In this document: in pieces, positions 61,080-64,000 of the stretch
How positions within the stretch are numbered: the first letter of the stretch is position 1
Layout: the number at the start of each line of letters is the position of its first letter
Assembly (NCBI RefSeq): GCF_014251755.1
Contig: NZ_CP059200.1
Location: 446,746-510,745 of the forward strand
DNA: 64,000 nucleotides
Source of the DNA: Blattabacterium cuenoti
Lineage (GTDB): Bacteria; Bacteroidota; Bacteroidia; Flavobacteriales; Blattabacteriaceae
Reading direction: 5' to 3'
Notes under the pieces: model-generated
Told to the model about the DNA's origin: nothing
Databases searched by the model: none
What the model saw: only the letters and a program-made list of their open reading frames with translations
Translations under genes and position numbers: made by a program

Positions 61080-61562
61080 ATGGAAAAATTTGAATATATA
61101 ACTAAAGAAGGATTAGAAAAATTACAAAAAGAAATCGAAAGATTGGAAAATATAGAACGGCCGAAAATATCCATGCAAATAGCGGAAGCTAGAGATAAAG
61201 GAGATTTATCAGAAAATGCAGAATATGATGCAATAAAAGAAGCTCAAGGTTTTTTAGAAATGAATATAGCTAAGTTAAAAAAAAAACTATCCAACTCACG
61301 GATCATAGATGGATCAAAAATCAATAGAACTAGAGTTTCTATTCTTTCCACAGTAAGAGTCAAAAATTTAACCTACGGAGGAGAACAAATATATACCTTA
61401 GTTCCAGAGGGAGAAGCAGATTTAAAATCAGGAAAAATATCGATAAATACTCCTATATCAACAGGATTACTTGGAAAACAAGTGGGAGAAATAGCCCATA
61501 TTAAATTACCTAATAAAATGATACTTAATTATGAAATTTTAGAAATAGCATTTAATGAATAA
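61080..61562 (+). CDS. greA: Transcription elongation factor GreA
   Basis: Rescues backtracked RNA polymerase by stimulating transcript cleavage. 160 residues: N-terminal coiled coil with the acidic tip ARDKGDLSENAEYDAIKEAQ, then the C-terminal globular domain (GGEQIYTLVPEGEADLKSGKISINTPI, LLGKQVGE). Its end overlaps the HIT gene by 8 bp. Confidence 0.96.
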   Translation: MEKFEYITKEGLEKLQKEIERLENIERPKISMQIAEARDKGDLSENAEYDAIKEAQGFLEMNIAKLKKKLSNSRIIDGSKINRTRVSILSTVRVKNLTYGGEQIYTLVPEGEADLKSGKISINTPISTGLLGKQVGEIAHIKLPNKMILNYEILEIAFNE

Positions 61563-61965
61563 TAAGAATATATTTCAAAAAATAATTCATAATGAAATTT
61601 TAGCTTATAAAGTAGCAGAAAATTCTGATCATTTAGCTTTTTTAGATATTTATCCTATAAAAATAGGACATACTTTGGTAATACCAAAAAAAAGTAATAG
61701 AGATAAAATTTTTTCTTTATCGGAAAAAGAATTTATCTCTATTATGTTTTTTACAAGAAAAATAGCTATTGGTATAGAAAAAATCATTCCTTGCAATCGT
61801 GTAGGTATATTTGTTATGGGGTTTGAAATTCCTCATGTTCATATTCATTTAATTCCTATGGACAAAGAAAGTGATGGAAATTTTTCCAAAAAAAGAATGG
61901 TTTTATCTTCAAAAAATTTTGAAGTTTTATCAGAAAAAATAAAAAAATCTATTCAAAATATGTAA
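61555..61965 (+). CDS. HIT family hydrolase
   Basis: 136-residue histidine-triad nucleotide-binding protein, likely a purine-nucleoside phosphoramidase of the HINT type. The HIT motif is HVHIHLIP (about 94-101), and the N-terminal AFLDIYPIKIGHTLVIPKK is typical. Its ATG lies inside greA, so the two are probably translated together. A hairpin covers its stop codon. Confidence 0.92.
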   Translation: MNNKNIFQKIIHNEILAYKVAENSDHLAFLDIYPIKIGHTLVIPKKSNRDKIFSLSEKEFISIMFFTRKIAIGIEKIIPCNRVGIFVMGFEIPHVHIHLIPMDKESDGNFSKKRMVLSSKNFEVLSEKIKKSIQNM

Positions 61966-61979
61966 ACGAAGATTTACAT
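61960..61979. terminator. Hairpin across the HIT gene stop codon
   Basis: Perfect 7-bp arms (61960-61966 and 61973-61979) around CGAAGA; the left arm contains the HIT stop TAA (61963-61965). It lies in the 28-bp gap before the convergent coaX gene, so it could serve both strands. Confidence 0.35.
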
Positions 61980-61993
61980 TATTGATATTCAAT

Positions 61994-62770
61994 TTAATGA
62001 TTCCAATGAAATAAGATTTTTAATCCTTTCATAGTATGTAGTTTATCTGTTATATGAATTTGTTTTGTTAAAGGGGTATATATGTGAGAAAAACCTCCGG
62101 TAGCAATAACAAAACAATTTGTTTTCAATTCTTGATTAACCCGATTTATCAATCCTTCAACCATGCTTAAATATCCATATATGATTCCACTTTGAATACA
62201 TGTTTCTGTGTACTGTCCTAATATACTAGGAGGTTTTTTTAATTTTATGTTTTTTGATAATTGAGCTGTATTTCCAATCAATGCATTTAAAGAACTATTG
62301 ACTCCAGGAGCTATAATAACACCTTGAAGGTGTCCATATTTATCGATACAGGTAAAACTTAATGCAGTCCCAAAATCTACTACCAAATAAGTGGTATTTT
62401 GATTTTTGTATAATGTATATGCGGCTATAGCATTAGCATATAAATCGGTTCCTAATTGATGAGAATAATGTTTTATAGGAGAATAAGAGTTTCTATCTAC
62501 GATAATAGGTTTTATTTTATGTATTTCATATAAAGATTGTTTCACAATATTTGTAAGAGAAGGAACTACTGATCCAATGACAATATTTTGTATAAATTTG
62601 GAAAAAATACCATATTGGTGATATCTATTTCTAAATAGAAAAATATATTCATCTAGTGATCTATGTGGGATACTATTGATAATCCAAGAACAATTACATT
62701 TTAAATTATAATTATTATCAAATATTCCAAAACGAAGACTGGAATTTCCAATATTTATTATTAATAACAT
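61994..62770 (-). CDS. coaX: Type III pantothenate kinase
   Basis: Phosphorylates pantothenate, first step of coenzyme A synthesis; unlike CoaA it is not strongly feedback-inhibited. 258 residues: NIGNSSLRFGIFD phosphate-binding start, VVDFGTALSFTCID with the catalytic Asp, GVIIAPGVNSSLNALIGNTAQL and ATGGFSHIYTPL. It is divergent from the alpha/beta hydrolase gene across the tandem-repeat spacer. Confidence 0.94.
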   Translation of the reverse strand: MLLIINIGNSSLRFGIFDNNYNLKCNCSWIINSIPHRSLDEYIFLFRNRYHQYGIFSKFIQNIVIGSVVPSLTNIVKQSLYEIHKIKPIIVDRNSYSPIKHYSHQLGTDLYANAIAAYTLYKNQNTTYLVVDFGTALSFTCIDKYGHLQGVIIAPGVNSSLNALIGNTAQLSKNIKLKKPPSILGQYTETCIQSGIIYGYLSMVEGLINRVNQELKTNCFVIATGGFSHIYTPLTKQIHITDKLHTMKGLKILFHWNH

Positions 62771-62830
62771 GATTCACAATATTTTTCATTTTTTTAAAAA
62801 AAATAAAAACGTCTTTTGAATCAGACAATT

Positions 62831-62952
62831 ATTTTATTTCATAACATATTCATGACATGTATTTATATAATCTCATAAAAGTATATTTTATTTCATAACA
62901 TATTCATGACATGTATTTATATAATCTCATAAAAGTATATTTTATTTCATAA
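62831..62952. repeat. 54-bp tandem repeat (two exact copies plus 14 bases)
   Basis: Unit 62831-62884 is repeated without change at 62885-62938; 62939-62952 is a third partial copy. Each full copy holds TATAAT (62866-62871 and 62920-62925) and CATGACATG. The array lies between divergent coaX and the alpha/beta hydrolase, ending 4 bp before the hydrolase ATG. Confidence 0.9.
62920..62925 (+). promoter_or_regulatory. Candidate -10 hexamer for the alpha/beta hydrolase, duplicated
   Basis: TATAAT here, and its copy at 62866-62871, are perfect -10 consensus sequences on the plus strand, 31 and 85 bp before the ATG. No convincing -35 box is at the right distance, so only moderate support. Confidence 0.35.
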
Positions 62953-62955
62953 GTA

Positions 62956-63753
62956 ATGACTAATATTTTTAAAATAAATACAAAAGTAAAAGGAAAAGGA
63001 ATTCCTATAGTATTATTGCATGGATTTATGGAAAATTTAGAAATATGGAATTATATATACAGTAACATTTCTACTAAAAAATATAAAGTTATTTCAATTG
63101 ACTTTCCAGGTCATGGAAAAAGTGTTTTCACAGAAAAAAAAAATACAGTTTTTACGATGGAAAAAGCTGCAGAAATTGTAAAAAAAATTGTAAAAAAAGA
63201 AAATATACAAAAAGCGATTTTTGTAGGACATTCTATGGGTGGATATGTGGCTTTAGCCTTGGCAGAAAAATATCCAGAAATGTTTTTAGGATTGTGTTTA
63301 CTTCATTCTACAACAGAATCAGATACACTTGAAAAAAAGAAAAAACGCATTCAGTCTATTCAATTAGCAATCCATCATTATACATTATTTATAAACACAA
63401 GTATAAAAAAATTATTTCATTATGAAAAATTATGTTCTTTGCAAAACCAAATTGGTTTTGTAAATCAAATTGCTTCAAATACTCATATTCATAGTATTAT
63501 TTCTTTTTTAAAAGGAATGTCAATTCGAAAAAATAGAACATTTTTACTAAAAACAACTAAATTTCCAAAACTATATATAGCTGGTTTATACGATAGAATT
63601 CTTGATATAAAAAAAATTTATGAAGAAACTAAAAATGGAAATCAAATATATTTTTTTGCAATACCTACAGGTCATATGGGACACATAGAAAAACCTAAAA
63701 AAATAATAAAAATATTAGAAAATTTTATAGATTTTTCTATTTTTAAAACGTGA
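62956..63753 (+). CDS. Alpha/beta-fold hydrolase
   Basis: 265 residues, alpha/beta hydrolase superfamily. Oxyanion-hole segment LLHGFMENLEIWN (about 20-32), nucleophile elbow GHSMGG with the Ser at about 96, acid Asp near YDRILD (about 215-220) and the catalytic His near GHMGHIEKP (about 240-248). The fold alone does not name a substrate; BioH-, MenH- or peroxidase-like roles are possible. The following cyclo-ligase gene starts 5 bp later. Confidence 0.85.
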   Translation: MTNIFKINTKVKGKGIPIVLLHGFMENLEIWNYIYSNISTKKYKVISIDFPGHGKSVFTEKKNTVFTMEKAAEIVKKIVKKENIQKAIFVGHSMGGYVALALAEKYPEMFLGLCLLHSTTESDTLEKKKKRIQSIQLAIHHYTLFINTSIKKLFHYEKLCSLQNQIGFVNQIASNTHIHSIISFLKGMSIRKNRTFLLKTTKFPKLYIAGLYDRILDIKKIYEETKNGNQIYFFAIPTGHMGHIEKPKKIIKILENFIDFSIFKT

Positions 63754-63758
63754 GTTGA

Positions 63759-64000
63759 ATGAATAAAAAAAAATTACGTGAAAAATATTTACATATGAGA
63801 AAGTCTTTTTCTAGAAAAAAAATTAGAAAAATGAGTTCTGAAATTTTCTTTCAGTTAAGAAAGATATTTTTTTTATGGAAAAAAACTTATTATCACATTT
63901 TTTTACCCATACGGAAACATAAAGAAATAGATACATTTATCATTATCAATTTTTTACTAAAAATAGGAAAATATGTCACGGTACCCTGTTCTAATTTTCA
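63759..64000 (+). CDS. 5-formyltetrahydrofolate cyclo-ligase, N-terminal part (3' end outside window)
   Basis: ATG at 63759 opens a frame that runs off the end of the window (80 codons visible). It reads MNKKKLREKYLHMRKSFSRK then later YHIFLPIRKHKEIDT, which matches the ATP-binding N-terminus (RK...LR.. S) and FLPI-EID segment of 5-formyl-THF cyclo-ligase (YgfA/MTHFS family). This enzyme salvages 5-formyl-THF, made as a side product by SHMT and linked to the glycine cleavage system. Too short to be listed as a full frame; confidence rests on this N-terminal match. Confidence 0.78.
   Translation, partial: MNKKKLREKYLHMRKSFSRKKIRKMSSEIFFQLRKIFFLWKKTYYHIFLPIRKHKEIDTFIIINFLLKIGKYVTVPCSNF

Follow-up and report, generated by a model that had tools for sequence, protein, structure and literature searches.

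The 185 bases between the start codons of the divergent genes coaX and alpha/beta hydrolase (62771-62955) harbour a tandem array. Very probably an AT-rich intergenic unit of 54 bp was recently duplicated in tandem in this lineage alone, through slippage or unequal recombination, and the added copy would be near-neutral. Events of this kind are known, and this intergenic duplication is an ordinary one. The window is the whole stretch of DNA that was analysed, i.e. 64 kb (positions 446746-510745, GC content 26%) of the source genome G000, which comprises 625,920 bases in one contig and is 99% complete. Table 1 compiles the features discussed below.

Table 1. Features of the coaX-hydrolase region (positions within the window)
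Feature	Coordinates	Strand	Remark
coaX, type III pantothenate kinase	61994..62770	-	PF03309, E 9.4e-47
Best conserved non-coding spacer block	62804..62831	.	left of array, overlaps its first two bases; 8.8/13 vs 4.9/13
54-bp unit, copy 1	62830..62883	.	identical to copy 2
CATGACATG, copy 1	62851..62859	.	before hydrolase in G000 and G049 only, of 49 genomes
TATAAT, copy 1	62866..62871	+	90 nt 5' of hydrolase ATG; putative element only
54-bp unit, copy 2	62884..62937	.	identical to copy 1
CATGACATG, copy 2	62905..62913	.	
TATAAT, copy 2	62920..62925	+	36 nt 5' of hydrolase ATG; putative element only
Partial third copy, 15 bases, TATTTTATTTCATAA	62938..62952	.	G049 counterpart is the right-hand short-repeat arm bounding the single unit
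Alpha/beta hydrolase	62956..63753	+	PF00561, E 5.8e-27

The tandem array and its rarity

In the assembled sequence the period-54 match spans 62830-62952, i.e. 123 bases or 2.28 exact copies of the unit. Two full copies (62830-62883 and 62884-62937) follow each other head to tail with 100% identity, and a partial copy closes the array. The original prediction, which had been made from the sequence without database searches, described an exact tandem duplication beginning at 62831 and followed by the first 14 bases of a third copy. The identity of the copies and the start of a third one stood, the array begins at 62830 and the partial copy measures 15 bases. Also its placement between the divergent coaX and the hydrolase gene was correct, as was the occurrence of TATAAT (62866, 62920) and CATGACATG (62851, 62905) in each copy.

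At a shift of 54 there are 69 consecutive matching positions and, with a per-base match probability of 0.307, such a run is expected with a probability of 3.8e-36 at a given place. Since the array is the sole exact direct repeat of at least 18 bases at shifts of 15-149 within the 64-kb window, it is far beyond chance. With the cut-offs used in Tandem Repeats Finder (minimum period 20, minimum score 50) no other array of the window is matched at 100%, which bears out that exact tandem repeats are otherwise rare in it. Shorter exact repeats do occur, e.g. the 12-bp tandem repeat (AAATTGTAAAAA x 2.2, 63173-63198) in the hydrolase gene that encodes IVKKIVKK. As the same sequence is found in the relatives G049 and G005 this short repeat is old and was kept.

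In 224 kb of own sequence the arrays matched at 100% (period of at least 20) are the 54-bp array and a 23-bp array with 2.1 copies (L048, 3549-3596). The 160 kb of own sequence outside the window contain, besides weaker ones, one higher-scoring array of 81 bp x 3.4 with 96% match (L050, 13200-13475). One frame just downstream of this 81-bp repeat weakly matches OmpA (E 7.7e-06, just under the family cut-off), so the repeat may lie within an outer-membrane protein gene. Four congeners, sampled over about 60 kb each, and a 62.5-kb stretch of G049 contained no array with a period above 30.

Nowhere else in its own genome is the array matched in full; there are partial matches of 14-27 bases only, and its 23-base core occurs nowhere else there with up to three mismatches. 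Membership in a dispersed repeat or mobile element was thus rejected, as there are no further copies in the genome. An RNA element was rejected as well, because an Rfam covariance-model search of 62500-63300 gave no matches up to E = 1. Secondary structure was dismissed as basis of the array, since its folding (as DNA) is close to that of shuffled sequences (z-scores of -1.13 and 0.04 on the two strands, 0.60 for the single unit). An upstream coding extension of the hydrolase was ruled out by the in-frame TAA at 62950-62952 just before its ATG.

It is extremely unlikely that the array is an assembly artefact with a true copy number of one, or of more than two. A longer array would look alike if it had been collapsed. 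With its 123 bases the array is shorter than common short reads; moreover, the genome was assembled into one contig with 99% completeness. In addition, the predicted precursor, a single unit with arms spaced by 54 bases, is seen in G049, yet such arms could mislead an assembler too.

Single-unit relatives and age of the duplication

The array is present in one of the 49 genomes of the genus, namely G000. Before the hydrolase of the other 48, exact direct repeats (shifts of 15-149) reach a maximum length of 7-14 bases, depending on the genome. This comparison covers one genome per species and 330 bases of each, ending about 60 bases into the hydrolase with the coding parts included, and in at least G020 and G017 the left-hand gene is not coaX. 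In these two genomes (L022 and L025, around 1250-1540) no coaX frame lies beside the hydrolase, and the sequence upstream of the hydrolase resembles, by eye, a gene for a HIT-domain protein. In G055 the match to the hydrolase (C1, 509677-510455) consists of two overlapping rows with 1 and 15 internal stops, and this suggests that the gene is decaying there.

The closest relative is G049, with 95.06% identity to the window over 61.5 kb aligned and with the most similar hydrolase among the 48 congeners (92%). A probe representing the single-copy state matches G049 over its full length at 90%. The spacer of this relative contains a single, unduplicated unit flanked by the arms TTTTATTTCAGAA (left) and TTTTATTTCATAA (right), i.e. 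by short direct repeats that are one period (54 bases) apart and match at 12 of 13 bases, with a longest exact stretch of 10 bases. Because the array is found in G000 only and G049 has the single unit, the array arose in the G000 lineage after the split from G049. The second unit is likewise absent from G005, which makes a gain in the G000 lineage simpler than a loss in the others.

The unit of G000 differs from that of G049 at four positions (2, 13, 32 and 52). At position 32 both copies in G000 carry an A in place of the T that is present in G049 and G005, and it follows that the duplication came after this change or that the copies were homogenised. The recent age that had been proposed for the duplication is therefore supported by the single copy in G049 at 95% nucleotide identity and by the absence of the array from all 48 congeners.

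Conservation of the spacer

Conservation was counted in 14 of the 49 genomes: G049 served as reference, and it was compared with the 12 genomes ranking next by hydrolase score and with G055, G000 being left out because of its duplication. AT-rich spacers of this kind cannot be aligned with certainty, and the following means per column have to be read with caution. Within the spacer, conservation is lowest and gaps are most frequent in the unit with its tail, where 4.9 of the 13 congeners are identical to G049 and 5.1 gapped. The block TAAAAACGTCTTTTAAGTCAGACAATTG left of the array reaches 8.8 identical and 1.2 gapped of 13, and the 28 columns between coaX and this block have intermediate values (6.0 and 3.2). 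Among the congeners the unit is variable or missing. In G003 just 33 bases separate the two start codons, so that most of the spacer is gone and TATAAT is still there.

Judged by the higher conservation left of the array, control signals of coaX, of the hydrolase or of both, if shared at all, are likelier to reside in 62804-62831 than in the unit, and the effect of the duplication may be limited to a greater distance or a longer leader. On inspection by eye, part of the unit, TATATAA...TCATAAAAGTATATTTTATTT, can be made out in G049, G005, G019, G023 and partly in G057, and that part may have some local function within this subgroup.

Promoter-like elements in the unit

According to the original prediction the duplication copies a promoter-like element and the hydrolase could thus possess two promoters. 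It is improbable that each copy represents a working promoter and that the hydrolase is transcribed from two starts 54 bases apart. Both TATAAT elements lie upstream of the hydrolase ATG at distances (90 and 36 nt) that would suit this reading, and in the near relatives a stretch resembling TATATAA-TTTCATAAAAGTAT can be recognised (in several of the nearest ones also as a stretch like TATATAA-TTTCATAAAAGTATATTTTATTT). On the + strand TATAAT is found in 6 of the 17 homologous spacers examined, G000 included, but it is absent from the remaining 11. The wider stretch of 250 bases with coaX coding sequence included contains TATAAT in 42 of the 49 genomes, but this count is unspecific since the coaX coding sequence holds TTATAATTATT in many of them. 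Within the window TATAAT occurs at chance level (108 occurrences on one strand and 100 on the other vs about 97 expected per strand), and 5' of genes it is not enriched either (34 vs 30.9 +/- 5.4 in shuffled sequences; the opposite strand has 44). Finally, the unit to which the elements belong is poorly conserved among the congeners. In a Bacteroidetes genome with 26% GC a TATAAT alone should not be called a promoter.

The box TAnnTTTG is described as the -7 box of sigma-A in Flavobacterium psychrophilum (PMC9723704). Upstream of genes we counted it 37 times vs 17.1 +/- 2.9 in shuffles (24 times on the other strand), and for 28 of these 37 boxes the distance to the start codon downstream is 25 to 81 bases. 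These counts, as well as those of TATAAT 5' of genes, come from 105 upstream stretches in 224 kb of the 626 kb with 10 shuffles as control. Open reading frames were assigned by a mechanical rule (ATG start, minimum 90 aa), spacers had at least 40 bases of which at most 200 were used, and divergent spacers were counted once per direction so that the two strands are not independent. With its roughly twofold enrichment upstream of genes (window and L046-L053) TAnnTTTG offers a usable promoter handle in this endosymbiont.

The spacer 62771-62955 contains no exact copy of this enriched box on either strand, only boxes with one mismatch. Such one-mismatch boxes are found in 16 of 17 spacers in direction of the hydrolase and in 17 of 17 in direction of coaX, and a promoter assignment based on them was dropped as uninformative for either gene. 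Inspection by eye of the spacing to a -33 TTG box yielded nothing usable. A promoter scan of 61500-64000 reported 11 sigma-70-like sites vs 22.3 in shuffles. Two of them lie wholly inside the copies, both on the - strand, and two others, on opposite strands, overlap the array at its right end, but no + strand site makes use of the TATAAT elements of the array. Correspondingly, no TTGACA-like hexamer (E. coli consensus) was found at the scan threshold 16-18 nt before these elements on the + strand. With TATAAT at chance level, no TAnnTTTG and CATGACATG in 2 of 49 genomes, the idea of a copied promoter and of two promoters of the hydrolase finds weak support at best.

The element CATGACATG and the distance to coaX

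A further explanation is an effect of the duplication on coaX, or on coaX and the hydrolase together, either via CATGACATG as the site of a regulator or via the spacing, with the copy number as a tuning knob. The position of the array between divergent genes and the retention of CATGACATG in G049 are consistent with this, and a near-box in direction of coaX (TACTTTTA, one mismatch to TAnnTTTG) is present in both copies as well as in G005, G019, G023 and G018. The frequency of one-mismatch boxes given above (16/17 towards the hydrolase, 17/17 towards coaX) means, though, that the near-box says little. Within the 330 bases examined, CATGACATG or its complement occurs before the hydrolase in 2 of the 49 genomes (G000 and G049), and a 23-base probe holding CATGACATG was found, with up to three mismatches, in 2 of 49 as well. 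In the 160-kb sample of own sequence the element or its complement appears twice more (once each in two of eight samples), so chance is plausible, and the fold of the array is not unusual (z-scores of -1.13 and 0.04). An action via CATGACATG or spacing is thus very unlikely. We regard it as just as doubtful that, between coaX (coenzyme A synthesis) and the hydrolase, the array works as an expression switch of variable length, with a copy number that differs within or between hosts and thereby tunes one gene or both.

Origin of the duplication

Slipped-strand mispairing and unequal recombination usually act on short direct repeats that are spaced by one period. The arms in G049 are 54 bases apart and thus constitute the expected substrate for either process. 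As the comparison with this relative shows, the ancestral spacer contained one unit bounded by the short direct repeats (TA)TTTTATTTCATAA of about 13-15 bases, 54 bases apart. Slipped-strand mispairing during replication, or unequal recombination between these short repeats, would then have added one 54-bp period. Both routes remain open as recA and mutS are kept: a match to the RecA domain is present in the genome, which makes recombination possible, and a match to the MutS domain lies in an open frame of 859 aa, which means that mismatch repair is retained at least in part.

The added copy puts an extra 54 bp between the hydrolase start and the better conserved block, which lies on the coaX side. 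Should the hydrolase be transcribed from this block, the outcome would be a leader that is 54 nt longer and not a second promoter. Near-neutral indel churn is the most likely description of this locus, with the neutrality deduced from the poor conservation of the unit.

Comparison with known tandem repeats and meaning

In Wolbachia wMel the intergenic tandem repeats VNTR-141 and VNTR-105 with little divergence between copies were ascribed to slipped-strand mispairing (PMC3287509). The array described here resembles them by its intergenic tandem units with near-identical copies and by its possible use as PCR length marker. It differs from them by its size (2.28 x 54 bp), by its occurrence in a Blattabacterium-type genome and by the comparison of one genome per species. 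The cited work assumes that hairpins trigger slippage in the Wolbachia repeats, whereas the present array folds no better than shuffled sequences. Moreover, whether a low copy number is ancestral could not be said for Wolbachia (PMC3287509), whereas G049 and G005 point to a single copy as the ancestral state of the present array.

Portiera is, similarly, an AT-rich reduced insect endosymbiont with tandem repeats, and their presence in some of its lineages was correlated with the loss of dnaQ (PMC7821994). For Portiera of Bemisia tabaci that paper counts, by its own criteria, 111 tandem repeats, vs two arrays matched at 100% (period of at least 20) in 224 kb here. A search for Blattabacterium together with tandem repeats led to PMC4567559, the accessible text of which mentions tandem repeats once and in general terms. 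In this literature search, which comprised few subscription papers, no paper on tandem repeats in Blattabacterium spacers was found.

At the level of sequence nothing points to an altered gene control by the second copy. The array could perhaps serve as PCR length marker for strains. Its main value is that it provides, with the precursor preserved in a relative at 95% identity, a clean view of the states before and after a single intergenic duplication in a reduced endosymbiont genome.
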